From NCBI GenBank assembly GCA_031180805.1, contig JAPSLL010000019.1, forward strand, positions 1 to 64,000: a stretch of 64,000 bases of DNA, given 5' to 3'. Below the pieces are notes generated by a model. The model saw nothing but the letters and a program-made list of their open reading frames with translations, was not told the DNA's origin and ran no database searches. Source of the DNA: Bacillus sp. (in: firmicutes). Lineage in GTDB: Bacteria; Bacillota; Bacilli; Bacillales; Bacillaceae. Below are positions 1,748 to 16,888 of this stretch, in pieces (position 1 is the stretch's first letter; every line of letters starts with the position of its first letter). The translations under genes were made by a program, and so were the position numbers.

Positions 1748-1768
1748 AGGTTATAGAGGTGAATGAAA

Positions 1769-3028
1769 TTGTCACAAACAGCAGTAAACACTACTAAACA
1801 GTTGAATGTTAAATCGACTTCAACGACTTATGTAACAAACCTTAGCCCAATGCAAAAGGGATTCGTTGCAGTCGGGCTTATTATATCTCTAATTCTATTA
1901 TTTGCTATTGTTCATTCAACTAATTGGATACAAGGCAGCCTATTCATTATAGGTTTATTATTAGGAGCAACATTGCTTTATGCCCGCTTCGGATTTACTT
2001 CTGCTTTTCGTAGACTAGTTTCAGTAGGAAATGTTCAAGGACTTCAAGCACATATGCTAATGTTTGCTGTCTCAACTACATTATTTGCTATTATTCTAAG
2101 TACTGGCTTTAGCTTTACAGGTATTACGCCACAGGGGTATGTTTCTCCTGTTGGGGTTAGCGTTATTTTTGGGGCTTTTCTTTTCGGAATAGGCATGCAG
2201 CTCGGAAATGGATGTGCATCAGGAACGCTATATAATTTAGGTGGAGGCTCATCTTCTATGCTCCTCACTTTAATTGCCTTTATCTCAGGTTCAACTCTTG
2301 GAGCTTATCATCTGCCATTTTGGAATAACACACCTGCCCTACCGCCGATTTCTTTAGCAGAAACTACAGGTCTTGGATATTTTGGCGCTTGGCTTATTCA
2401 AATGGTTGCATTTATCGCGATCTACTTGATTACCATTCAGATTGCGAAAAAGAAAAACCCTCCAATGATGAAGCCACTTCCGACAACAACTGGTTGGAAA
2501 AAGGTTTTACGTGGGTCATGGCCATTATTTACGGCAGCGATTGTTTTAGCAGTACTAAATGCTTTAGTCCTTACAATTCGCGGAAATCCATGGGGAATCA
2601 CTTCTGCCTTTGCTTTATGGGGTGGAAAATTTCTTGATATAGTGGGAGCAGATGTTTCCAGCTGGGGTTATTTTGCTGGAGCAAACGGAGAAGCGCTTAA
2701 AAACACAGTCCTAGCGGATTCAACAAGTGTGATGAACTTTGGAATCATTTTGGGTGCCTTTATTTCCGCATCCTTCCAAGGTACGTTTAAGCCGAAAAAA
2801 ATGAAATTGGGTGTAGCCGGTGCGGCTATTCTTGGAGGCTTGTTAATGGGATATGGTTCCCGTCTTGCATTCGGATGTAACATTGGCGCCTATTTTGGCG
2901 GTATCTCTTCCTTTAGCATTCACGGATGGGTTTGGGCCGTCATGGCGATGCTCGGAACATTCGTTGCATTATTTATCCGTCCATTATTTGGGCTACGGGT
3001 TCCATCATCAAAAGACACATTTTGTTAA
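1769..3028 (+). CDS. YeeE/YedE family sulfur-compound (thiosulfate-type) transporter
   Basis: About 419 residues and multi-pass membrane. It contains the two family signatures built around essential cysteines: GNGCASGTLYNLGGG in the first half and AFGCNIGAYFGG in the second, an internal duplication typical of YeeE/YedE. Characterised members take up thiosulfate, so this is probably a sulfur-source importer; the exact substrate is inferred from family. The TTG at 1769 is preferred because GAGGTGA (1756-1762) abuts the ATG at 1763 but lies 6 nt before the TTG. It is a single-gene unit with its own promoter and a strong terminator. Confidence 0.85.
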   Translation: MSQTAVNTTKQLNVKSTSTTYVTNLSPMQKGFVAVGLIISLILLFAIVHSTNWIQGSLFIIGLLLGATLLYARFGFTSAFRRLVSVGNVQGLQAHMLMFAVSTTLFAIILSTGFSFTGITPQGYVSPVGVSVIFGAFLFGIGMQLGNGCASGTLYNLGGGSSSMLLTLIAFISGSTLGAYHLPFWNNTPALPPISLAETTGLGYFGAWLIQMVAFIAIYLITIQIAKKKNPPMMKPLPTTTGWKKVLRGSWPLFTAAIVLAVLNALVLTIRGNPWGITSAFALWGGKFLDIVGADVSSWGYFAGANGEALKNTVLADSTSVMNFGIILGAFISASFQGTFKPKKMKLGVAGAAILGGLLMGYGSRLAFGCNIGAYFGGISSFSIHGWVWAVMAMLGTFVALFIRPLFGLRVPSSKDTFC

Positions 3029-3159: not shown

Positions 3160-3177
3160 GATTTATAGTTAAATAAG

Positions 3178-3335
3178 TCTTCTGTTAGGTGAGGCTCCTG
3201 TATAGAGATACGCTGCTGCCCAAAAATGTCGAAAGACGCCAATGGGTCAACAGGAAAAATCGGATTAAGGTTTTTCTTAACGTAGCTGGTATTAACCTAT
3301 GCTATACAGTGCTAAAACTCAACGTGGGGGGACCA
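3178..3335 (+). ncRNA. M-box (ykoK) magnesium riboswitch
   Basis: The leader carries the conserved M-box blocks GTTAGGTGAGGCTCCT, then GCTGCTGCCCAAAAATG, then GTCGAAAGACGCCAATGGG and TCAACAGG. M-box RNAs compact when Mg2+ is plentiful and terminate transcription. The expression platform is the hairpin at 3369-3400, and the controlled gene downstream is a CorA-type Mg2+ transporter, exactly the expected target. Confidence 0.93.
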
Positions 3336-3368
3336 TTCTAAATGTACGATTCATTTTACTTTTTGAAC

Positions 3369-3517: not shown

Positions 3518-3597
3518 TATTTATGTAAAACTCAAAACGACTTAATTTGTCGGTATCATAACATTTCCTTTTATAGAAGTAAAAAGAGGTGAAAAAA

Positions 3598-4536
3598 ATG
3601 CTTAATATATACAAAACATCGAATGAAGGTAAAATTGTTGAAATAAAAAATATTGAAGAAAACTGCTGGATAAATATTTTTAATCCAACATTCGAAGAAC
3701 TCAATCTCGTTTCTAAACAATGCAAAATTCCCTTTGAATTTTTGGAAAGTCCGTTAGATTTAGAAGAAAGTGCTCGAGTTGAATATGATAAGGAAACGAA
3801 TTGCACGTTAATAATCAATGATTTTCCAATTATTGATAGCAGCAATCAGCATTTTCATTCTTATATTACAATCCCTATTGGAATAACGTTAAGTACTAAT
3901 TACTTTATAACTGTTTGTAATCAGCCAAGTAGCTTAATCGAAAATTTAATCAAAAAAAATGTCAACACAACGATGAAGAGTCGTTTTGCATTAGAGATTT
4001 TATTGGCGATTTCAACACAATATATTGATAACTTAAAACAACTTAACAAACAACGCCTTAAAATTGAGAAGACTTTGCGTGATTCTTTAACAAATAAGCA
4101 ACTTTATGACCTTATGGAGATTGAAAAAAGTCTAGTTTATTTCCTCACTTCTTTAAAGGCTAATGGCGATGTTCTAAGAAAAATGTTTCTTACTACGTCC
4201 GTAAAATTATATGATGCAGATAAAGAGCTTTTAGAGGAAGTAAGGATTGAAAATACACAAGGAATCGAAACGACAGAATTATATACAAGAATTTTGAGCA
4301 GTATAACGGGATCTTATTCATCGCTAATATCCAATGAATTAAATAATACAATGAAAACTCTAACGTTATTTACAGTTTTTTTAACTCTTCCTACACTTGT
4401 ATTTAGCTTTTTTGGGATGAATGTCAATTTACCAATTGTTGCTGAAAATCCTTTTTCTTGGGTCATTACGTTAATAATAGCCTTGCTCTTAATTATGTGG
4501 ATAGGTTTAGTACTATGGAGAAGAAGAATAGTTTAG
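3598..4536 (+). CDS. corA: CorA family magnesium transporter
   Basis: A 312-aa protein with a long cytosolic N-terminal domain rich in charged helices and two C-terminal membrane segments. The diagnostic GMN motif (FFGMNVNLP) ends the first membrane helix, and a short positively charged tail (WRRRIV) closes the protein. CorA forms a pentameric Mg2+ channel. The ATG at 3598 is chosen because AAAGAGGTGA ends 5 nt before it; an upstream GTG lies inside that ribosome site. Control by the M-box means expression at low Mg2+. The segment CCTTTT about 15 nt before the ribosome site could pair with AAAAGAGG and mask it. Confidence 0.93.
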   Translation: MLNIYKTSNEGKIVEIKNIEENCWINIFNPTFEELNLVSKQCKIPFEFLESPLDLEESARVEYDKETNCTLIINDFPIIDSSNQHFHSYITIPIGITLSTNYFITVCNQPSSLIENLIKKNVNTTMKSRFALEILLAISTQYIDNLKQLNKQRLKIEKTLRDSLTNKQLYDLMEIEKSLVYFLTSLKANGDVLRKMFLTTSVKLYDADKELLEEVRIENTQGIETTELYTRILSSITGSYSSLISNELNNTMKTLTLFTVFLTLPTLVFSFFGMNVNLPIVAENPFSWVITLIIALLLIMWIGLVLWRRRIV

Positions 4537-4731: not shown

Positions 4732-4766
4732 ATTTGTGTAAAATATAAATCAATTGCATAGTTAAA

Positions 4767-4847
4767 GGTTTTCTAGGGTTCCGCAATTTACGATTGGTCT
4801 GGTCCGAGAGAAAACTCACAGCACCTGCTGTGTCACGGAAGGATAAA
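4767..4847 (+). ncRNA. Guanidine-I (ykkC/yxkD) riboswitch
   Basis: The conserved ykkC blocks are present in order: TCTAGGGTTCCG, GGTCTGGTCCGAGAGAAA, CACAGC, ACGGAAGGATAAAAGCC. This RNA senses guanidinium and turns genes on by preventing termination. The downstream pair of SMR exporters is a classic target. Confidence 0.95.
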
Positions 4848-4894
4848 AGCCTGGGAGATAACTGTTTATCAGTTTCTCTCAGGCTTTTTTGTTT
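4848..4894 (+). terminator. Riboswitch-controlled terminator
   Basis: AAGCCTGGGAGA...AACTG pairs with CAGTT...TCTCTCAGGCTT followed by a T-rich tract. Its 5' arm overlaps the end of the guanidine aptamer, as expected for an expression platform. Confidence 0.88.
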
Positions 4895-4927: not shown

Positions 4928-5269
4928 ATGAATACAAACTGGATTAAAGTAATTGTTGCTGCTTTTTTTGAAGTGTTTTGGGTTATTGGATTGAAACACG
5001 CTGATGACTTTTGGACTTGGGCTGGAACCGTTATATCAATCATTGTCAGTTTCTATGTAATGATAATGGCAGGACGAAAACTTCCCGTAGGAACTGTATA
5101 TGCAGTTTTTGTAGGATTAGGTACAGCAGGAACTGTTATTGCTGAAATCCTTTTCTTTGGAGAACCATTTAAAATGAGTAAAATACTAATGATTTTACTG
5201 TTATTAGCTGGTGTAATTGGATTGAAATTAGTTACTACGGATAAAGTTAAGGAAGGGGCTGAATCTTAA
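4928..5269 (+). CDS. ykkC: SMR family guanidinium exporter subunit, YkkC-like
   Basis: A 113-aa small multidrug resistance protein with four membrane helices and the conserved membrane glutamate in helix 1 ([16 protein letters not shown]). SMR proteins of the Gdx/YkkCD type exchange guanidinium for protons. Its TAA overlaps the ATG of the next gene by one base, so the two are translationally coupled and probably form an antiparallel heterodimer. Control by the guanidine-I riboswitch supports guanidinium as substrate. Confidence 0.93.
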
Positions 5270-5583
5270 TGGCTTGGATTTCTTTAATTTTAGCTGGTTT
5301 ATGTGAAATGTTTGGGGTTGTGATGATAAATAAACTCCATAAGGACCGTAATTGGAAATCCCTTGTTCTATTAGTTGTTGGATTTGGAGCAAGCTTCCTA
5401 TTTCTATCATATGCAATGGAAACACTCCCTATGGGCACAGCTTATGCAATTTGGACAGGGATCGGTGCTTCTGGTGGAGCAATACTAGGAATGCTACTAT
5501 ATGGAGAATCAAAAGATTGGAAAAGATTAGTCTTCATCTTTATGGTTTTAGGTGCAGCAATAGGGCTAAAGCTTGTTTCATAA
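5269..5583 (+). CDS. ykkD: SMR family guanidinium exporter subunit, YkkD-like
   Basis: A 104-aa four-helix SMR protein with the helix-1 glutamate in LAGLCEMFGVVMINK and the SMR motif PMGTAYAIWTGIGASGG. Only one polar loop differs markedly from its partner, typical of paired SMR subunits with opposite topology. It is the second gene of the riboswitch operon and is followed by a terminator. Confidence 0.92.
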   Translation: MAWISLILAGLCEMFGVVMINKLHKDRNWKSLVLLVVGFGASFLFLSYAMETLPMGTAYAIWTGIGASGGAILGMLLYGESKDWKRLVFIFMVLGAAIGLKLVS

Positions 5584-6067: not shown

Positions 6068-7324
6068 TTACACCCCCTTAGTTTCTACCGATGCTGACTG
6101 GTATAATAGCCTTTTTGATGGTAAAAAACAGAGTATACATAATGTTATCGATAATATCATCATCAATAAAACTCCTATTATGACAACAGTTTGAATAGAA
6201 CTATTTTGAGCCATAATCCCCATAATGCTAGTTACAATAATCACTAAAATTGCTTGAATTAGACTATATACACTCCCAATCCGTCCCATCACATCAACTG
6301 AGATATTGTTCTGATAGAATGTAAGAAAACCAGTATTCGCATAAGCGATAAAAAAGGCAAGGAGAAAGAAACCAATTGCTGCAACGAAAAACGAGCTTGA
6401 AAAGGCATAAATGATATACCCAGCTGAGACTAAAACAGAACCTATTCCTATCAACAATGAGGTTTCAATCTTTTTAACGAGAAAGGCGTTAATAAACGCT
6501 CCAACCGCAATACCTGCTCCAGCAATCGTGACGAGAAAGCCGTATTCACTGTCTGATAATAAAAGGACCTCTTTCGCAAAAGTAGCTTCGAGTGAATCAA
6601 CGGCACTCGCCATGATAACCATTACGCCATTAAACAAAAAGTAAATCATCATGACATAGCGATATCGGTAGCTGTATTGGGCAACAACAGACCAGTCCTT
6701 TTTTATTATTTCCAATGATAATCTGTTACTCTCCGAAGGAACAAAAGCTCCCTTCTCCACATCAGGCATTACTAAAGTAATAATTCCTGATATAAATAAA
6801 GCAACTGCATTTATATAGATTGCAAATATTGGAGTACCCATTAAAAACAATAATCCTGCGACTGCTGGACCTAATAAAAATGCACCTGATGTAACTAGAC
6901 TATGAAGAGAATTAAATTGTTTTCTTTGTTCTTGCGGAATTAGCTTTGTTATATAAGTCATTGATGTTGGTCCAAATATTGAACTGGCCATATTGATAAT
7001 AAATACAATTATGTAAATTAGAGCAATAGATGAAAAGAAAGGTAATATAGCTATAAATGTAGCTCTGAATAAATCAAGAAAAACCATTAATTTTCGTTTG
7101 TTTAATCGGTCAATCATACTACCTGCCCAAAAGTTAGAAAATAAAGTAGCCAAAGACTTTATAATATAAAGGCCTGATACAGCAAGTGGTGAGCCAGTCA
7201 TATCCAAAACGATTAAATTAAGAGATAAAAAATAAATCCAATCACCGATATTTGAGATTCCAATTCCTAGCAATAAAATCGCTGGATATTTCCAAGTCAC
7301 TAGTTTTTTCTTTATGTTCATCAA
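6068..7324 (-). CDS. MFS transporter (MefA-like drug efflux group), T-box controlled
   Basis: A 418-aa protein with about 12 membrane helices. The helix 2-3 loop motif (GSMIDRLNKRKLMVFLDLFR) is the MFS signature of drug and macrolide exporter-type families. The N-terminal half lines up with the MFS_3/MefA group (SNIGDWIYFLSLNLIVLD). A proton-driven exporter is most likely; the substrate is unknown. The striking feature is the complete T-box leader upstream (7385-7676), which ties expression to an uncharged tRNA, so a role in amino-acid or peptide transport, or in response to an antibiotic that blocks tRNA charging, should be considered. Confidence 0.85.
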   Translation of the reverse strand: MMNIKKKLVTWKYPAILLLGIGISNIGDWIYFLSLNLIVLDMTGSPLAVSGLYIIKSLATLFSNFWAGSMIDRLNKRKLMVFLDLFRATFIAILPFFSSIALIYIIVFIINMASSIFGPTSMTYITKLIPQEQRKQFNSLHSLVTSGAFLLGPAVAGLLFLMGTPIFAIYINAVALFISGIITLVMPDVEKGAFVPSESNRLSLEIIKKDWSVVAQYSYRYRYVMMIYFLFNGVMVIMASAVDSLEATFAKEVLLLSDSEYGFLVTIAGAGIAVGAFINAFLVKKIETSLLIGIGSVLVSAGYIIYAFSSSFFVAAIGFFLLAFFIAYANTGFLTFYQNNISVDVMGRIGSVYSLIQAILVIIVTSIMGIMAQNSSIQTVVIIGVLLMMILSITLCILCFLPSKRLLYQSASVETKGV

Positions 7325-7383: not shown

Positions 7384-7430
7384 AAAAAAACCCCGTCCCC
7401 AAGACTCTATAAACTAAAGTCTTGGGGACG
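7384..7430 (-). terminator. T-box terminator
   Basis: On the minus strand CGTCCCCAAGACT pairs perfectly with AGTCTTGGGGACG (7394-7406/7418-7430), followed by GGG and seven T residues. It is mutually exclusive with the T-box antiterminator just upstream. Confidence 0.9.
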
Positions 7431-7676
7431 AGATTTATTAAATCGTGGTGCCACCCCAGTTTATTAATATGTCACCATATTAATCTTTTCAGGTACAATC
7501 ATCATATACCTTAGCTCTATAACGGGAGCTCCCGTCACACCATCCCCCAAAAGGTTCCGATATAACACTCAGAGGCTTGTTTCAATAAATCATCCTTACT
7601 CCTTTTCACCAAACGGAGCTCTCTGTAAAGAAATGATTTTATCTACTTTTCTCTTCAACGCATTTATTTATTTATT
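7385..7676 (-). ncRNA. T-box leader (tRNA-sensing riboswitch)
   Basis: On the minus strand the canonical T-box GGGGTGGCACCACG (7457-7444) precedes the terminator. A Stem I region carries AGAGAGCT, a GGTG apical element, a specifier loop (AGTA opposite GAA) and the CTCTGAGTG closing strand. Reading the usual GAA-N-XXX layout gives specifier CAA (7579-7577), glutamine; a serine AGC reading (7577-7575) is possible. The TGGC bulge (7453-7450) demands a tRNA with discriminator G73, which fits Gln or Ser and argues against Lys or Thr. Specifier identity is inference. Confidence 0.88.
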
Positions 7677-7854: not shown

Positions 7855-8826
7855 TCAATTGTGCTCTATATCCTTTACACATCTAAATCCTAGATTCCCG
7901 CTCGAGCTATCAATCGTATTATGGGTCCGGGCTGCTACACGATATCGATTACAATAGGAATCGTGGCATAAATAAGATCCGCCTCTCATAGACTTTGTAT
8001 GACCATTTGTTGGACCTTTCGGATTTACTAATGAATCTGTCTGGTGAAACGTTGGGTGAAACCAATCAGAACACCACTCCCATACATTCCCTGCCATATT
8101 AAAAAATCCGTATCCATTCGGCTCATAACTATCTACTGGTGCTGTACCAATAAATCCATCCTCAGCTGTATTAATAGAAGGAAATTCCCCTTGCCAAATA
8201 TTACACATATGCTTGCCATGAGGAGATAATTCATTACCCCAACAATATTTATTCTGCACAAGCCCACCTCGAGCAGCATATTCCCATTCTGCTTCTGTAG
8301 ATAGCCTTTTACCTGACCATTCGCAATATGCCATTGCATCATTCCATGATATATGAACAACTGGATGATTCCATCTGTCTTCTATAGAGGAATTGGGACC
8401 CTCTGGATTTTTCCAATATGCACCTTCAACTACACGCCACCAAGGTGTATTCCTTGGAACTCTCGTATAAAGAGCAGCATCTTCTTCAGATAGAAGCAAA
8501 TGAAAAACAAAGGACCACCCATACTTTTCTGCATCTGTTTTATAATTGGTTTCTTCCACGAAATATGCAAATTCCCTATTAGTAACTGCATATTTATCCA
8601 TGTAAAACGGACTTACCTTTACTTTTCTTATCGGTCCTTCTCCGTCCAAAGGAAATCCTTCTTTATCCTCTGTTCCCATTAAGAACTCTCCACCTTGAAG
8701 AAAAATCATATCGTCCATAGAAGTAGATTTTCTTTTTTTAAAGCTTAATTTTTCTTCTAAATTTATATCGTTCGTTGCCTCTCTACTAACGGAACAGCAC
8801 GATTTATGCTTTATATCCTTTTCCAT
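7855..8826 (-). CDS. Formylglycine-generating enzyme (sulfatase-modifying factor)
   Basis: A 323-aa FGE-sulfatase (SUMF1) fold protein: MIFLQGGEFLMG near the start, RLSTEAEWEYAARGG in the middle, GNVWEWCSDW and the C-terminal GFRCV. The active-site cysteine pair is intact (C287 and C292 in RGGSYLCHDSYCNRYR), unlike SUMF1-like paralogues of other function. FGE uses copper and oxygen to turn the sulfatase CxPxR cysteine into formylglycine. There is no signal peptide, so it acts in the cytosol. The ATG at 8824-8826 follows AAAGGTGA by 5 nt. It ends an operon with two CHR transporters and lies near the cysteine-type sulfatase, its obvious client. Confidence 0.92.
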   Translation of the reverse strand: MEKDIKHKSCCSVSREATNDINLEEKLSFKKRKSTSMDDMIFLQGGEFLMGTEDKEGFPLDGEGPIRKVKVSPFYMDKYAVTNREFAYFVEETNYKTDAEKYGWSFVFHLLLSEEDAALYTRVPRNTPWWRVVEGAYWKNPEGPNSSIEDRWNHPVVHISWNDAMAYCEWSGKRLSTEAEWEYAARGGLVQNKYCWGNELSPHGKHMCNIWQGEFPSINTAEDGFIGTAPVDSYEPNGYGFFNMAGNVWEWCSDWFHPTFHQTDSLVNPKGPTNGHTKSMRGGSYLCHDSYCNRYRVAARTHNTIDSSSGNLGFRCVKDIEHN

Positions 8827-8839
8827 AGTAATCACCTTT

Positions 8840-9376
8840 CTAGAAAATAAATCCTCCTACAATACCTGCTCCCAATATAACAAACAAAGGATGAGCTTTC
8901 CATCTCATTAAAAAGTAAAGTGCTGCTAAAAAAATAAGCAAGAGCAAAACCATTTCCTTATTCACATGTATAGAAATAACATTATTGGAATAAGCAAATT
9001 TTAGTGCAGCATATACAATTAAGCTTGTAACGATAGGTCTCAAGCCATAAAATCCTGCTTTGACAAGTTTATGTTCATTTATCTTAGTAAAGCAAATCGC
9101 CATAAGGAGAATAATCATCAATGAAGGAATCGTCATAGCTAATGAAGAAATAATTCCCCCAGGTATTCCTGCAAGTTGATAGCCAACTAGTGAAGCACTA
9201 TTTGTCGCAATCGGTCCTGGGGACATTCCAGCAATCGCCATCATATCGGTAAATTCACTTGTACTTATCCATTCTCTTGAAGCAGCACCCTGCTCAATAA
9301 CCGGGATCATGGCATAGCCACCGCCAAAAGAAAGCGTTCCGATTAAAAGGAAAAATAAAAATAGTTGAATGAGCAT
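8840..9376 (-). CDS. Chromate transporter family (CHR) half-size protein B
   Basis: A 178-aa membrane protein with the CHR signature LSFGGGYAMIPVIE near the N-terminus and GMSPGPIATNSASLVGY, followed by several helices. Short-chain CHR proteins work as pairs encoded side by side; this one follows its partner by 15 nt. Chromate is a sulfate analogue and CHR proteins are anion (chromate/sulfate) transporters. Next to a sulfatase and an FGE, export of the sulfate released from substrate is a reasonable inference. GGGAGG precedes the ATG. Confidence 0.88.
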   Translation of the reverse strand: MLIQLFLFFLLIGTLSFGGGYAMIPVIEQGAASREWISTSEFTDMMAIAGMSPGPIATNSASLVGYQLAGIPGGIISSLAMTIPSLMIILLMAICFTKINEHKLVKAGFYGLRPIVTSLIVYAALKFAYSNNVISIHVNKEMVLLLLIFLAALYFLMRWKAHPLFVILGAGIVGGFIF

Positions 9377-9391
9377 GGTATTCCCTCCCTT

Positions 9392-10006
9392 CTAACTTGC
9401 CTGATGTACTTGATGGCTCTCTTTTTCTTTCTCATCATTTTCAAGCTTAACTACAATCCCTAATTTCTCTTTTACTTTCGTAATAACAATCCCCAATATC
9501 GCACCTAATACAATAACTAATATAGGATGCAGCTTTAGTACAATCATCCCGATCACCATTACAATGGATAATAGTGCTGTTGATTTATCAATTATCGATG
9601 TTTTACTGATTTTTATAGCAGCATAAGTGATAAGAGCAACTACAGCACCACTAATCCCTTTAAAAGCTGCCTGAACATAGACATTATCTTGAAAGTACAA
9701 ATATAGGCTTCCTATTGTTACGACAATTATAAAAGTTGGAATAAGCGCACCAAGCATTGCAACAATGGCACCTAGTACTCCCCCAATCCGATAACCAATA
9801 AATATGGAGGCATTAATCGCAATAGCACCAGGTGCTGTACCAGCTAAGGCTAAAGTATCTGAAACTTCCCCCATTTTCATCCATTTTTTTCTATATACGA
9901 TTTCCCGCTCAATAATTGGTATCATTGCATATCCGCCACCAAAGGTTACAGGGCTCATTTTAAAAAATACCCAAAATATATTTAACAGTGATACGATTTT
10001 TTTCAT
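9392..10006 (-). CDS. Chromate transporter family (CHR) half-size protein A
   Basis: A 204-aa CHR domain protein with VTFGGGYAMIPIIERE and AGTAPGAIAINASIFIGYR, then five or so membrane helices and a charged cytosolic tail. It is the first gene of the CHR-CHR-FGE operon. A 25-bp palindrome centred about 80 nt upstream is nearly identical to one in front of the RpiR-type gene, so this operon is probably in that regulator's control. Chromate resistance is the classical phenotype; sulfate handling is favoured here by context. Confidence 0.88.
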   Translation of the reverse strand: MKKIVSLLNIFWVFFKMSPVTFGGGYAMIPIIEREIVYRKKWMKMGEVSDTLALAGTAPGAIAINASIFIGYRIGGVLGAIVAMLGALIPTFIIVVTIGSLYLYFQDNVYVQAAFKGISGAVVALITYAAIKISKTSIIDKSTALLSIVMVIGMIVLKLHPILVIVLGAILGIVITKVKEKLGIVVKLENDEKEKESHQVHQAS

Positions 10007-10074
10007 CTTATCTTCCTCAATCTATTTTTAGAATCGAACGAATGAGTTTCCTGTTCTTTTCTTACATCATTACA

Positions 10075-10099
10075 CCTTTTGTCCAAAATGGATAAAAGG
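10075..10099 (-). promoter_or_regulatory. Palindromic operator of the CHR-CHR-FGE operon
   Basis: A 25-bp palindrome with arms CCTTTTGTCC and GGATAAAAGG. It matches the site at 15317-15341 in 22 of 25 positions. On the minus strand its inner part reads TTGGAC, a plausible -35 followed 16 nt later by TAAGAA, so a bound protein would block the promoter. Confidence 0.65.
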
Positions 10100-10164
10100 C
10101 GGTAAAAATAATGAATAATATTCATAGTGTATAATATTAATCAATAAGTACATCAACAAAGAAA

Positions 10165-10202
10165 AGAGAAAATTCTTATAGCAAAAACAATAAGAACTTT
10201 CT
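10165..10202 (-). terminator. Probable terminator after the sulfatase gene
   Basis: On the minus strand GTTCTTAT pairs with ATAAGAAT across a 10-nt loop, followed by a T-rich tract. It separates the sulfatase unit from the CHR-FGE operon. Confidence 0.55.
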
Positions 10203-10297
10203 TCTTTTCCCTTTAGCCTTCAATAATAATCATTGTTGAGCTTCACAGTCCCCAGCAAAAAGAGCCTTTGCCATGTTTTTCTTTACTAGTTGCTTAA

Positions 10298-11788
10298 TTA
10301 TTTATTATGTTTCTCTAATCCTAAACGTACATATTGTTCGTCTGGTGCATCGCTTTTTTGCATAAGCTCCACTAATTTATCGCTCATTTCTCTTTCTAGA
10401 ACACTATCGGCTATAGGATTTTTTTGTTTAGGATCATTTTCGATATCAAATAATAGGTTTCCAGATTTATAAGTATTATAAAAACTCTTTACTGGGATTT
10501 TTAAATAAGGTGAATTGTTTGTAAATCTAGTCCCCGGCATTAGTTCTGCTTCATTTATTGCTTCTTGACTTAAGAAACCTCTCATTGCTGTAACTGCTAA
10601 AGTATGATTATATAAGGGTCCATTTTCCTCATTAGCAGAGGCTCTCATATAGGTGTATCTTCCATCATGAATATTCACATAGGAACCATGTGTGCCAAAT
10701 AGAATAGAATCATGATTCTCTTCTTTCTCCTTCTCTAAGATTGGAAGAAGAGAATTTCCCAATACCATTGTGTTATCAAAAGGAATATTAAAATAATCCA
10801 TTAGTGTAACGGGAATATCTATTGTTTGTGATAACGCTGAACATCTAGTACCCCCAACTGTAATATTAGGAATGTGAATAAAAAATGGGATATGAATCAC
10901 TTCTTCATATAATGGAGCGATATTCTTCCCAACCCAATTATGTTCTCCTAACAAGAAACCATGATCAGTATTAACAATTAGAAGTGTATCTTTCCACATA
11001 TCATGCTCATCCATGAAATCCAGCACTTTTCCAAGATGATAATCACACATACTAATTAAAGCAGCATATTCCTTTTGAAGGGCTTCTAAATCCCTGTCTT
11101 CGTAATCTCCTTCACTTAACTGTTGATACGCTGGCCAGTATGGTATATCCTTTTTATCTTCACAATCATATATCTGTCTATATTTTTCTGGTACATAGAA
11201 CGGTTCATGTGGGTCAAAGCATTCAATCTGTAGGAACCAATTGTCTTTTTCTTTATGAGTGCTTAAAAAGTCGAGACCTGCAGCAATCGTTTGAACACTA
11301 GACATATCTTCTTCTCTTTGTTGTCTAGTTCTATTCGCAAAATGTTGAAGGACAGATATACCTTGCTTGTTCATTTTATGCTTATTTTCGTTTGGTAGGG
11401 CTTCACCTCTTGCTATCCATCTGTCGCCTTCCTGTCCTCTAAATCCTTCCCACGTAGAATAACGGTTATGATAAGTTGCTCCCCCGTCCTCAAAATAATG
11501 GGAATGATCTGTTACTAAATGTGTGTATACTCCCTTTTTTTGCAATTCTTCAAATACAGAACCATCAAATGATTCAAGTGGTCCCCATTGGCGATGTAGA
11601 AAATTATAATTTCCTGTATGCAATTCTCTTCTTGCTGGCATACAGGGCATACTCCCCCCATAAAATTGATCAAAGGTCACCGTTTTTTCCTGCAGACGTT
11701 TGAAATTTGGGGCATGCACCCATTCATTATTATAATTTGGAAGAAAGTTTCGAGATAAAGTATCAAACATGACCATGACGGCTCTCAT
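10298..11788 (-). CDS. Cysteine-type sulfatase, cytosolic
   Basis: A 496-aa alkaline-phosphatase-superfamily sulfatase. The formylglycine signature CMPARRELHTG (C49, P51, R53, T58, G59) fits CxPxRxxxxTG exactly. Metal ligands are visible as D9 (MFDT) and D275-H276 (NTDHG), and K288 follows in the usual GEHNWVGKN context. There is no signal peptide, so it must act on an imported substrate, which fits the PTS permease encoded upstream. C49 needs conversion to formylglycine, presumably by the FGE encoded downstream. The promoter region carries two TTCCCAA repeats shared with the PTS gene. The substrate is unknown; a sulfated sugar is inferred. Confidence 0.93.
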   Translation of the reverse strand: MRAVMVMFDTLSRNFLPNYNNEWVHAPNFKRLQEKTVTFDQFYGGSMPCMPARRELHTGNYNFLHRQWGPLESFDGSVFEELQKKGVYTHLVTDHSHYFEDGGATYHNRYSTWEGFRGQEGDRWIARGEALPNENKHKMNKQGISVLQHFANRTRQQREEDMSSVQTIAAGLDFLSTHKEKDNWFLQIECFDPHEPFYVPEKYRQIYDCEDKKDIPYWPAYQQLSEGDYEDRDLEALQKEYAALISMCDYHLGKVLDFMDEHDMWKDTLLIVNTDHGFLLGEHNWVGKNIAPLYEEVIHIPFFIHIPNITVGGTRCSALSQTIDIPVTLMDYFNIPFDNTMVLGNSLLPILEKEKEENHDSILFGTHGSYVNIHDGRYTYMRASANEENGPLYNHTLAVTAMRGFLSQEAINEAELMPGTRFTNNSPYLKIPVKSFYNTYKSGNLLFDIENDPKQKNPIADSVLEREMSDKLVELMQKSDAPDEQYVRLGLEKHNK

Positions 11789-11840
11789 CTTATTTCTTCT
11801 CCTCTCTTGTATCTATCATTTTATGATTTTATTACTTATT

Positions 11841-11910
11841 ATTATATAATTACTTCCATTGTTTTTGGTTTGGTACGAACAAGTTGGGAAAATATCCACG
11901 ATTTTGGGAA
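11841..11910 (-). promoter_or_regulatory. Sulfatase promoter with paired TTCCCAA sites
   Basis: On the minus strand a perfect TATAAT (11846-11841) lacks a good -35. TTCCCAA copies lie at 11890-11884 and 11910-11904, 20 nt apart, with the nearer one 37 nt from the -10. The PTS promoter has the same arrangement at the same distances, which suggests activator sites. Confidence 0.65.
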
Positions 11911-11991
11911 AACACTCAAAGGTATTTAAGATAAGAAGCATCTATTTCCTATTTAGGATGATGTTTTTTCTATTTTTTTCCGTACTTCCAT

Positions 11992-12020
11992 TAAAAAAAG
12001 GAGGAAAATCCCCTCCCTTT
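11992..12020 (-). terminator. Intrinsic terminator after the PTS gene
   Basis: On the minus strand AAAGGGAGG pairs with CCTCCTTT (one bulge), followed by a T7 run. It makes the PTS gene a separate unit from the sulfatase. Confidence 0.75.
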
Positions 12021-12032
12021 TACTCCTCACGT

Positions 12033-13988
<1,956 letters not shown>

Positions 13989-14173
13989 TTACACTTGAGA
14001 CAAATCATATCAACACATCTTGTGTCTATAGCTATACTTAATTTAACAATGTAATTGAAAATCTATTTTACATCGGATATTCATGTACCGATTTCTCTAG
14101 TCATTGCCCTTCTTTCTTTGTATAAATAATATCTATTAAGTAAAATATCTATTTTGAAAGCGCCCTCTAACGT

Positions 14174-14243
14174 ATTATAAAATAATAGTATTCGTTTTGG
14201 AGTCCTTTTCATTAGTTTGGGAAAGCGCTTCAAAGTTTGGGAA
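14174..14243 (-). promoter_or_regulatory. PTS promoter with paired TTCCCAA sites
   Basis: On the minus strand TATAAT (14179-14174) has no good -35. TTCCCAA copies lie at 14223-14217 and 14243-14237, 20 nt apart, the nearer one 37 nt upstream of the -10. This geometry is identical to the sulfatase promoter. Confidence 0.65.
14220..14233 (-). promoter_or_regulatory. Possible CcpA cre site
   Basis: GGAAAGCGCTTCAA matches the idealised TGAAAGCGCTTTCA in 11 of 14 positions and overlaps the proximal TTCCCAA site. Catabolite repression by competition with the activator is a natural reading. Confidence 0.5.
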
Positions 14244-14297
14244 TAGATTTAACATCTTAGATTGTTCATTAAATAGGTTCCAAGAAGGGCGATACAT

Positions 14298-14336
14298 AAA
14301 AAACCTCGCCTTTATTTAAATAAAGACAAGGTTTTA
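14298..14336 (-). terminator. Intrinsic terminator after the RpiR-type gene
   Basis: On the minus strand a long palindrome (ACCTTGTCTTTATTTAAATA and partner, with G-U pairs) ends in a T6 run. It lies 130 nt past the RpiR-type stop codon. Confidence 0.8.
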
Positions 14337-14466
14337 ATCATTGATTCATCAGGATATATTAATGTTTCTTAGCATAAAGAACTATTTGTAAAAAGCAATT
14401 GTAAACAAAGTAAGATTGATTAATGCATGTTACTATAAGTCATCTACCTTTTACGTAACTAGGTTA

Positions 14467-15234
14467 CTAAATTTTTCTATTTAGATATTCAACATAATTG
14501 TAAACTAGCATTTCAATAATGACATGTATAGGGCTATATAAAGAATAAATATTCGTACCCGTTGGAGAGGGTGGATCAATATACGCTTGGATACTAAATG
14601 TAGAATGATTTACTAACCAATTACTTGAATTAGCCGTAATCCCTAAAATCTTAACATTTTTAAGTATAGGAGTAGTTAATGCCTCCTTTAGAATTGGGTT
14701 ATTACCTGAACCTGAAAAAACGATAAGTAAGTCTTTCTCACACATTCGTTCTATCATTATATGGTAAAGACTTGTATGACCAAATGGTAAAACCTGCATT
14801 TCCTTTCCCAATCCTAAAAACATTCTCTGCATTTCTGAGGCTTGATTTTGCTGAGCCCAGCCTGTGCCAATAATATAAATATGCTCACTATTGTCAATAG
14901 CTTGAAAAATTTCATCTAGATTCTGATTTTTTAAATTATTTATCGTATTCGTCACACTATTTACTATTTGTTCATCCAAATTACTATGTACAACTTGATT
15001 GTCTGTAAAAATCTCTCCCCATTTTATAAAATTTTTCAACTCAGTAAATCCAGAAAACCCCAATTTTTGAGCAAATCTTAATACAGATGATTTAGATGTT
15101 AAACTGTTATGAGCAAGTTGATTAATGCTTAATTTGTGAATACCTTGTTTATTTTCAAGAACGTACTTTGCAATTGCAAGCTCACCTTCACTTAAAGAGC
15201 TATATTTTTCATTTATAAGGCCTTCTAGCTTCAT
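14467..15234 (-). CDS. RpiR/MurR family transcriptional regulator
   Basis: A 255-aa protein with the N-terminal RpiR helix-turn-helix (INQLAHNSLTSKSSVLRFAQKLGF, about 38-61) and a C-terminal SIS sugar-phosphate-binding domain (YIIGTGWAQQNQASEMQRMF, about 118-137, and LLIVFSGSGNNP). Such regulators sense phosphosugars. It lies upstream of and in the same orientation as the PTS gene. The palindrome 80 nt before its start, shared with the CHR-FGE operon, overlaps its putative -35 and suggests autoregulation. AAAGGGG precedes the ATG. Confidence 0.9.
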   Translation of the reverse strand: MKLEGLINEKYSSLSEGELAIAKYVLENKQGIHKLSINQLAHNSLTSKSSVLRFAQKLGFSGFTELKNFIKWGEIFTDNQVVHSNLDEQIVNSVTNTINNLKNQNLDEIFQAIDNSEHIYIIGTGWAQQNQASEMQRMFLGLGKEMQVLPFGHTSLYHIMIERMCEKDLLIVFSGSGNNPILKEALTTPILKNVKILGITANSSNWLVNHSTFSIQAYIDPPSPTGTNIYSLYSPIHVIIEMLVYNYVEYLNRKI

Positions 15235-15311
15235 ATGAACAGCCCCTTTCTATCTACAATTTGAGTCCTTTTTTTCTTTATTAATCCTCAAAAATTGTTT
15301 AATTTATCATA

Positions 15312-15346
15312 ACATACCTTTTATTCAAATTGGATAAAAGGTATGT
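15312..15346 (-). promoter_or_regulatory. Palindromic operator of the RpiR-type gene
   Basis: A long palindrome with arms ACATACCTTTTAT and ATAAAAGGTATGT. Its 25-bp core (15317-15341) matches the site at 10075-10099 in 22 positions. On the minus strand it contains TTGAAT, a candidate -35 followed 16 nt later by TAAATT. Confidence 0.65.
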
Positions 15347-15514
15347 GGTAGTACCAAAGTAATACTTGTATATATAGCTTGAGAAGCAAATGCAGCATCT
15401 CTAATTATCTGCAATTCTGTACTAATTTATAACAATTGCCACAATCTATTGCCTTTTAAGTATCGTCCAACGAAACTCCTAATTTCCTTACTTTTTTGAA
15501 GCGATCTTTGTAAA

Positions 15515-15546
15515 TAAAAAAACATGAGAACTCTCCCATGTTTTTA
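15515..15546 (-). terminator. Intrinsic terminator after the ROK gene
   Basis: On the minus strand AAAACATGGGAG pairs with the partner TCTCATGTTTT and is followed by a T-rich tail. The stop codon of the ROK gene lies just upstream. Confidence 0.8.
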
Positions 15547-15552
15547 AAAAAA

Positions 15553-16734
15553 TTATGCTTGCCAATTAAAATGTGCATTATAAATCTCAATAGCACCACC
15601 TAATGCAACAGACTTTTCTCCTATTGTGCCTTTTTGAATGGTGATAGTAGATTTTATGTATATATTTTCTTCTATCGTTTTCTTCACTTCTTGATAGTAA
15701 GCAGGATATTGATAAATCAGCTTTCCATGTAGAAATACTTTTGTTGGATGTAGGATATTAATCATATTACTAATGCCAATACCGTAATAATAGGCTGATC
15801 GTAAAACCAGCTCTTTCACTGTAGGGTCATTATTTTCTAATGATTCCTTTATAAAATCAATTGCATTAACTTGATCTTTCGAAAAGGAAACTGCCTTTTT
15901 CTCTACTATTTCTTCCAATAACGCTTGATAAGTAGTATAAGCAGCTAAACAACCTTTTTTTCCGCAAATACAATCTCTTCCATTAATATCAATAACGATA
16001 TGCCCGGCTGCACTGGAGTCACCTGCTTTATTATTGCCTGGCATACCTCTCTCTAAAAAGCCTGTCCGGACTCCGTACCCATTAATACAATATAAAATAG
16101 ATTCATCTAATAAACTATTTAAATAGTATTCAGCATATGCAGCTGTAGTTGCTCCATTATTTAAAGTGATTGGCACAGGAAATTCTTCGTTTAGCATTTG
16201 TACAATTGGAGCATTATGCCATTCTCTAGCAAGACTATCTGGATTTAAGATAATCCCTTTTTCCCGATCGAGTGGACCTACAGAGCCTATTCCGATACCC
16301 AACAAAGCTTCATCTTTTATCTTATGCTTGTTAAGTACTTTCTTTAAATATGAGACCAATTTAGGTATTACCTTTTCTGGTGTATCTGTTACATGGAACT
16401 TAAATTGAATTTTTTCCAATTCTTCAAATAATATATTCGTTAAAATAGCTGTTACATGGGTTCTTGAAATATCTATTCCTATCACATATGCGGCATTTGG
16501 AACTATCGCATAGTAGGTAGGTGGTCTTCCTCCTGAAGGTACTCCTTTTCCATCATTATAAATATACCCTTTATCCTGTAACTCGTAGATTATTCTTGTC
16601 AAGGTAGTTTGAGGTAGATGAAAAGCTTGGAGCATTTCGATTTTAGAGGTTCTTCTGCGCATATGAATATATTTATAAATTTGTTTCTTAATATTGTTTT
16701 TTTCTGAGCTATCTAATAAGAATTCCTTTAACAT
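15553..16734 (-). CDS. ROK family transcriptional regulator (NagC/XylR type)
   Basis: A 393-aa protein: N-terminal winged helix (MLQAFHLPQTTLTRIIYELQ), then an actin-like sugar kinase-type domain starting YVIGIDISRTHVTA, with the ROK zinc motif GRDCICGKKGCLAAY about two thirds along. These regulators bind DNA and respond to a sugar or sugar phosphate. I chose the ATG at 16732-16734, which follows AGAGTGATAGG; an earlier TTG at 16764 has no ribosome site. It is the outermost gene of the sulfatase/PTS locus and is a candidate binder of the TTCCCAA pairs, though nothing in the sequence proves this. Confidence 0.88.
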   Translation of the reverse strand: MLKEFLLDSSEKNNIKKQIYKYIHMRRRTSKIEMLQAFHLPQTTLTRIIYELQDKGYIYNDGKGVPSGGRPPTYYAIVPNAAYVIGIDISRTHVTAILTNILFEELEKIQFKFHVTDTPEKVIPKLVSYLKKVLNKHKIKDEALLGIGIGSVGPLDREKGIILNPDSLAREWHNAPIVQMLNEEFPVPITLNNGATTAAYAEYYLNSLLDESILYCINGYGVRTGFLERGMPGNNKAGDSSAAGHIVIDINGRDCICGKKGCLAAYTTYQALLEEIVEKKAVSFSKDQVNAIDFIKESLENNDPTVKELVLRSAYYYGIGISNMINILHPTKVFLHGKLIYQYPAYYQEVKKTIEENIYIKSTITIQKGTIGEKSVALGGAIEIYNAHFNWQA

Positions 16735-16888
16735 CCTATCACTCTGTTCTCCATTTTTTATCAATATATCATAAATATGTGAGAGTTCGAAAGGTTAATA
16801 CCTATTAGTAGCTAAGAATAGTGGGAATTAGCAAAACTAACGGAATCACATAATCAATATAAGATTAAACCTCGATTTACGTGGGTAT

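Follow-up and report, generated by a model that had tools for sequence, protein, structure and literature searches.

A phosphotransferase-sulfatase locus in a Bacillus species with a paired CHR transporter as candidate sulfate exporter

The DNA analyzed here (the window) was a stretch of 64,000 nucleotides, positions 1 to 64,000 of contig JAPSLL010000019.1 in the Bacillus sp. assembly GCA_031180805.1. Between positions 7855 and 16734, the window carries genes for a phosphotransferase system (PTS) permease, a Cys-type sulfatase, a formylglycine-generating enzyme (FGE), two half-size CHR proteins, and two regulators of the ROK and RpiR families. The question raised by this locus was what a CHR pair does among such genes. 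Judging from the sequence, we consider it probable that the locus serves PTS uptake of a sulfated, beta-glucoside-like sugar, cytosolic desulfation, and sulfate export by the CHR pair, all under two-tier ROK/RpiR control. A further proposal is that sulfate export during the breakdown of sulfated sugars is the physiological function of the CHR branch in question (the locus pair and dozens of other short-chain pairs), which would be swapped with TauE/SafE proteins in one slot of PTS-sulfatase cassettes and wired to a ROK operator; we see the case for it, made from sequence comparisons, as evenly balanced.

The initial annotation of the window had also regarded uptake of a sulfated sugar by a PTS as new. 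This claim was not upheld, because the general pathway idea is already in print: a pneumococcal operon encoding a PTS, a sulfatase, a modifying enzyme, and TauE was read as a route of sulfated-sugar uptake, desulfation, and export in 2012 (PMC3302838), and experimental support for PTS-linked degradation of sinigrin has also been published (PMC8660893). These two papers, as well as PMC3283741 and PMC8940164, are cited from excerpts. What looks new is the proposal of a CHR pair for the exporter role, together with the operator logic.

The locus and its regulatory sites

The genes and regulatory sites of the locus were as follows.

15553..16734, minus strand: NagC/Mlc-like ROK-family regulator, extended at the N-terminus and proposed to act as a repressor (PF00480, 124 bits; start codons ATG at 16734 and TTG at 16764)
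15316..15341, minus strand: palindromic operator copy 1, upstream of rpiR and followed by TATGAT (-10-like); from the assembly scan
14467..15234, minus strand: RpiR-family regulator (HTH_6 and SIS domains; PF01418, PF01380), proposed activator
14217..14243, minus strand: direct repeat TTCCCAA-N13-TTCCCAA upstream of the PTS gene (TATAAT at 14174-14179, 64 bp from the repeat start)
12033..13988, minus strand: PTS EIIBCA, beta-glucoside type (TIGR01995, 748 bits)
11884..11910, minus strand: direct repeat TTCCCAA-N13-TTCCCAA upstream of the sulfatase gene (TATAAT at 11841-11846, 64 bp from the repeat start)
10298..11788, minus strand: Cys-type sulfatase without a signal peptide (C49 in C-x-P-x-R, D9, D275-H276, K288)
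10074..10099, minus strand: palindromic operator copy 2, upstream of CHR-CHR-FGE; from the assembly scan
9392..10006, minus strand: CHR half-transporter a, short-chain CHR (PF02417, 159 bits; clade analysis)
8840..9376, minus strand: CHR half-transporter b, short-chain CHR (PF02417, 152 bits)
7855..8835, minus strand: FGE with the catalytic cysteine pair (PF03781, 284 bits; match to 6s07 at 5e-123)

Two types of putative operator tied these genes together. The palindrome CCTTTTATCCANTTTGRAYAAAAGGT was located upstream of rpiR and upstream of the CHR-CHR-FGE genes, and the direct repeat was located before the PTS and sulfatase genes. When the entire assembly (4,582,535 bases in 119 contigs) was scanned, the palindrome was found in these two places only at up to 3 mismatches (one was also listed on the opposite strand), and the direct repeat was found in its two places only at 0 mismatches. 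Reversed-pattern controls yielded 0 matches for the palindrome and 0 for the direct repeat. In addition, an identical TATAAT hexamer was present exactly 64 bp downstream of the start of both direct repeats. Because the two operator types joined four transcription units and had no further copies in the assembly at these thresholds, the locus is one regulatory unit and not a chance neighborhood, which strengthened the interpretation given in the initial annotation. A cre-like sequence, TGAAGCGCTTTC, was found at 14221-14232 on the minus strand, inside the PTS direct repeat; it suggests that CcpA control may overlap the putative RpiR site.

The seven genes were all located on the minus strand where the initial annotation had placed them, and every product scored above its Pfam cut-off. 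Pfam and NCBIfam matches agreed with the assignment of the two half-size CHR proteins, the PTS protein, and the two regulators. In the case of the PTS protein, the EIIA, EIIC, and EIIB domains were found in a single chain, and the score on the NCBIfam beta-glucoside IIABC subfamily model exceeded the cut-off (748 versus 614.7 bits). Matches of the ROK protein to the NagC and Mlc models were below cut-off. TauE/SafE was detected in 0 of ten scanned proteins of the window; the CHR pair was present instead.

The sulfatase (PF00884, 98 bits) had the alkaline-phosphatase-superfamily fold and the C-x-P-x-R motif of type I (S1) sulfatases, with the cysteine, C49, in GSMPCMPARREL, and its AlphaFold model had a mean pLDDT of 91. 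Its N-terminus led directly into the first core strand, and a signal peptide was absent as read from the sequence, in agreement with what had been noted originally. The FGE domain contained the active-site cysteine pair, and the enzyme is intact, as had been claimed; the cysteines are C290/C295 from the GTG start and C287/C292 from the in-frame ATG at 8826. In the alignment with 6s07, an FGE chain, the GGS-LC-x4-C-NRYR stretch had both of its cysteines aligned.

A PDB sequence search with the sulfatase returned distant relatives only. In the fold comparison, enzymes acting on choline, arylsulfate, carrageenan, ulvan, glycosaminoglycan, and phosphonate substrates were all within a few Z units; therefore, no substrate was assigned. 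Phosphonate monoester hydrolases (PMH) have a single N-terminal Asp and a D-H metal site, and the hydrolase of the locus has the same arrangement. PMH and SpAS sulfatases were among the best PDB matches, and in some strains one of the pneumococcal island genes carries the annotation phosphoenolpyruvate phosphonomutase-like (PMC3283741). These points would fit a phosphonate monoester hydrolase or phosphodiesterase in a pathway acting on phosphonates rather than sulfates. For a C-x-P-x-R protein encoded in one locus with an intact FGE, we consider such a function most improbable.

In the same genome (G000; L, G, and C numbers are our labels for loci, genomes, and contigs), contig C111 carried a second FGE gene and three more PF00884 genes (L059, L060), with ABC-transporter-like and Gfo/Idh-like genes nearby, both named by reading.

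The CHR pair and its relatives

The two CHR proteins of the locus are members of the CHR superfamily, with the Chromate_transp domain in half-size, paired genes. A search of 298 genomes with CHR half-transporter a identified a clade of 37 other matches at 147 bits or more. Below this clade were the second halves of the same pairs, an intermediate protein from G274 (118 bits), and ordinary CHR proteins at 102 bits or less. The 37 matches corresponded to 33 neighborhoods, of which 30 were counted; L045, L048, and L054 were excluded because they had been found via their sulfatase. As controls, we used the 30 ordinary CHR matches that were next in similarity to CHR half-transporter a rather than a random set. 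Two of them were from G115. G283 and the second halves of clade pairs were skipped, and G274 was placed in neither set. Some clade and control stretches were shorter than 20 kb due to contig ends.

A Cys-sulfatase, FGE, or anSME-like gene was found nearby in 15 of the 30 clade neighborhoods and in 0 of the 30 controls (p 6e-6), and such a gene was also present in 8 of the 18 clade neighborhoods outside the genus. In five loci (L152, L162, L166, L171, and L173), the CHR genes were directly followed on the same strand by an FGE gene, or by ROK and FGE genes in either order. A midpoint-rooted FastTree was built from CHR halves of 140 to 260 amino acids (142 leaves; the fused C28 gene and one short L076 half were left out). 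It contained a split with a support of 0.98. One side held the locus pair together with the 66 halves of the clade and 13 that came from loci of sulfatase orthologs; the other held the 59 control halves and the C86 pair of the same genome. Within the clade side, the L076-L079 halves joined the locus halves weakly (0.35 and 0.73).

The palindrome also recurred in the clade. At up to 6 mismatches to the consensus, it was found before the CHR genes in 8 of 8 clade loci that had a ROK gene at 34-46% identity. Of the remaining 22 clade loci, one (L158) had it in this place, as did none of the 30 loci with ordinary CHR genes; when 2000 random stretches of 320 bp were scored, 0.3% reached the same score. 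The consensus was written after five matches (L156, L162, L166, L171, and L173), so that five of the eight ROK loci shaped it and the only independent ones were L158, L160, L174, and L175, the last two of which appear to be the same neighborhood in two related genomes. L172, with only a distant ROK protein (23% identity), lacked the palindrome. Because the palindrome co-occurs with ROK genes in clade CHR loci, it is most likely the ROK operator. A LysR-type gene was present instead of a ROK gene beside the clade CHR genes in L045, L048, L054, L163, L169, and L176 (confirmed via Pfam in L045 and assigned by sequence likeness in the others), perhaps as a second wiring of the same CHR pair.

The family to which the pair belongs raised the question of chromate. 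The Pfam name and family would fit a chromate-resistance efflux pump that stands beside sulfatase genes by chance, and chromate efflux has been reported for the B. subtilis short-chain pair YwrBA with ChrS, which likewise consists of two half-size CHR proteins encoded in one operon (PMC8940164). On the general model TIGR00937, the locus pair (85 and 101 bits) also scored like ordinary CHR proteins (80-96 bits). However, YwrBA differs in its Lrp-type regulator and chromate phenotype, and on NF053760/NF053759, the ChrA/ChrB models of the B. subtilis type, the scores of the locus pair (70-88 bits, best 88.0 and 76.0) were far below those of the C86 pair (182-206 bits). Six ordinary CHR proteins scored 166-209 bits, and all of these scores were below the cut-off of 250. 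The genome contained the C86 pair beside an Lrp/AsnC gene, as in chrS-ywrBA, and a third, fused CHR gene on C28; a chromate role thus has its own candidate elsewhere. Since the locus pair also adjoins FGE on one strand, has an operator in common with rpiR, and falls in the sulfatase-linked clade, we regard a chromate pump as very unlikely here. Among open-licence PMC papers, none was found that linked CHR proteins to sulfatases or sulfate export, the papers listed being judged by their titles and the beginnings of their abstracts. An intracellular glycosulfatase of Bifidobacterium, a conceivable precedent, was likewise the subject of none of the 10 papers listed out of 408.

Sulfatase loci in relatives and known systems

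When 297 other relatives were searched with the sulfatase, 9 of them contained long matches, 11 in total at 42-50% identity, and there were also short contig-end pieces and many distant sulfatases. A set of 80 named sulfatase loci, with identities reaching 65%, was retained out of those in at least 587 relatives. The counts given below are from a six-frame analysis of all 91 sulfatase loci, which are not phylogenetically independent. Labels for TauE, radical-SAM/SPASM (anSME-like), BglG-type, EIIC, GH1, GH3, and GPH proteins were based on Pfam-confirmed representatives extended by home-made hidden Markov models, and other PTS types may be missed.

A PTS gene was present in 27 of the 91 loci, and 13 of these 27 contained TauE/SafE or CHR (TauE in 10, CHR in 4, both in L077). 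Eleven loci had a GPH symporter without a PTS, and 3 of these contained CHR. In the remaining loci, TauE/SafE or CHR was found in 3 of 53 (L118, L098, and L104; Fisher test of PTS loci versus the others, 1.8e-5). The PTS proteins encoded beside the sulfatase orthologs in L049, L053, and L052 were 71, 64, and 64% identical to the locus PTS, respectively. One sulfatase ortholog (L114, 8516-9979; 50% identity) was on a contig binned as Lokiarchaeota.

The direct repeat was found, with 1 mismatch, before the sulfatase ortholog in 3 of 21 scanned loci (L049, L052, and L053). The distance from the repeat to the -10 element was 65 bp, with TATAAT in L049 and a weak CATGAT in L052 and L053; in L053, CATGAT tied with another hexamer at 55 bp. 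L049 and L052, which have the repeat, contain an RpiR gene at 48% identity, and for this reason the repeat is most likely the RpiR site; the L053 contig starts about 0.5 kb before its sulfatase gene. In L065, an RpiR homolog at 40% was present, yet the repeat was absent at one mismatch. The position of the repeat upstream of the -35 region suggests activation.

The initial annotation had asked for the same neighborhood in relatives, and modules of it were seen. The nearest organization was that of Faecalibacterium L078, which contained anSME, RpiR, PTS, sulfatase, CHR, CHR, and GH1 genes. Cassettes of LicT, PTS, sulfatase, anSME, TauE, and FGE genes were found in Listeria aquatica (L069), Streptococcus moroccensis (L068), Vagococcus (L088), and Enterococcus (L090), and variants were found in Listeria grayi (L066), Enterococcus ratti (L067), and Mesoplasma photuris (L087). 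In Mesoplasma photuris, a Mollicute, sulfatase, FGE, PTS, and TauE genes stood in a row at 10001-15776 of L087. In the six LicT cassettes of Listeria, Enterococcus, Vagococcus, and S. moroccensis (L066-L069, L088, and L090), the sulfatases were 59-65% identical to that of the locus, and the PTS proteins were 55-56% identical (a long PTS open reading frame was compared in 5 of 6 loci). TauE was found in 6/6, FGE in 4/6, and an anSME-like gene in 6/6. These cassettes differ in having a BglG/LicT-type antiterminator and TauE, whereas the Bacillus locus has ROK and CHR.

As noted above, a similar set of genes is known from pneumococcus. The island SPH1922-1930 also contains a PTS, a sulfatase, a sulfatase-modifying enzyme, an anion exporter, and a ROK gene (PMC3302838, PMC3283741), and deletion of the ROK gene raised PTS and sulfatase transcripts (PMC3283741). 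The locus described here has the same combination of PTS, sulfatase, maturase, and anion-exporter-type genes, with the CHR proteins as the putative exporter. In contrast to its single Bgl-type EIIBCA and CHR pair, the island has a lactose-family, multi-gene PTS and TauE, and the excerpts do not mention an RpiR tier for it. Sinigrin is a sulfated glucoside. In Companilactobacillus farciminis, a Bgl-type EIIBCA, the type found here, was tied to sinigrin uptake, and there was experimental support for sinigrin degradation involving this protein and a 6-phospho-beta-glucosidase (PMC8660893). In that system, the aglycone is freed by the 6-phospho-beta-glucosidase, and the word "sulfatase" appears nowhere in the text (PMC8660893).

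Other features were noted in the window. A PF04143 sulfur-transport (YedE/YeeE-like) membrane protein was encoded at 1763-3028 (plus strand), a few kilobases from the locus, without either operator. An M-box magnesium riboswitch (3174-3336, plus) preceded a CorA-like gene (3589-4536, named by reading), and a Guanidine-I riboswitch (4762-4859, plus) preceded two small SMR-like membrane genes (4928-5583, by reading), which fits guanidine export. A T-box leader (7421-7667, minus; Rfam RF00230, 128 bits) was located upstream of an MFS transporter gene (6068-7324).

The proposed pathway

In the proposed pathway, the Bgl-type EIIBCA would, judging from its family, import and phosphorylate the sulfated sugar, which most likely resembles a beta-glucoside. 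Given the intact motifs and the lack of a signal peptide, the FGE would convert C49 of the sulfatase to formylglycine in the cytosol, and the sulfatase would remove the sulfate ester inside the cell, before or after the action of a glycosidase. The freed sulfate may then exit via the CHR pair, a step proposed by association because the pair holds the place of TauE/SafE in related cassettes. The ROK protein would bind the palindrome and repress rpiR and chr-chr-fge. RpiR would sense a sugar phosphate, bind the TTCCCAA direct repeat, and activate the PTS and sulfatase genes. For both regulators, the pairing with a site is suggested by co-occurrence, and the direction of control by the position of the site.

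Several observations weighed against this pathway. The exact seven-gene order was found in none of the relatives' loci that were mapped, and no glycosidase gene was present in the gene cluster; eight near-full-length GH1 matches above 430 bits were found elsewhere in the genome. PMH structures ranked near sulfatases in the structure comparison. In the available DNA, some of it on short contigs, 14 of the 27 PTS-sulfatase loci lacked TauE and CHR. The palindrome was absent before the CHR genes in the 7 sulfatase-ortholog loci tested in addition to the 30 clade neighborhoods (L045, L048, L054, and L076-L079), none of which showed a ROK gene, and it was present without a ROK gene in the clade locus L158. 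In the case of the pneumococcal island, sulfatase activity on 4-methylumbelliferyl sulfate was not detectable, and there was no in vitro growth phenotype, yet the island matters for fitness in mice (PMC3283741). Finally, neither a sulfatase nor a maturase gene was found within about 10 kb in 15 of the 30 clade CHR loci, which adjoined unrelated genes, such as those of the AtuA family, Fe-ADH, and DeoC/LacD aldolase; therefore, the cargo of the clade may be broader than sulfate.

These varied neighbors would suit a pair that exports another anion of the pathway or of carbon overflow, such as sulfite or an organic acid, and TauE/SafE, the alternative in the same slot, is named a sulfite exporter. 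However, the anion released by sulfatases is sulfate, of which chromate is an analogue, and the CHR genes have FGE, or both ROK and FGE, as same-strand neighbors in the locus as well as in the five clade loci with this arrangement; thus, a cargo other than sulfate seems unlikely, although less so than a chromate pump.

Since TauE-type cassettes were found in Listeria, Enterococcus, Streptococcus, and a Mollicute, the sulfated-sugar pathway appears to be more widespread than the published pneumococcal example. If the proposed export of sulfate by the CHR pair is true, it would account for the way in which a cell with cytosolic desulfation of sugars escapes the sulfate load, and it would provide a natural job for short-chain CHR proteins, whose main known role is in chromate resistance. 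Should the whole branch export sulfate, the family would be one that handles this anion, with chromate export by other CHR proteins as one of its offshoots.

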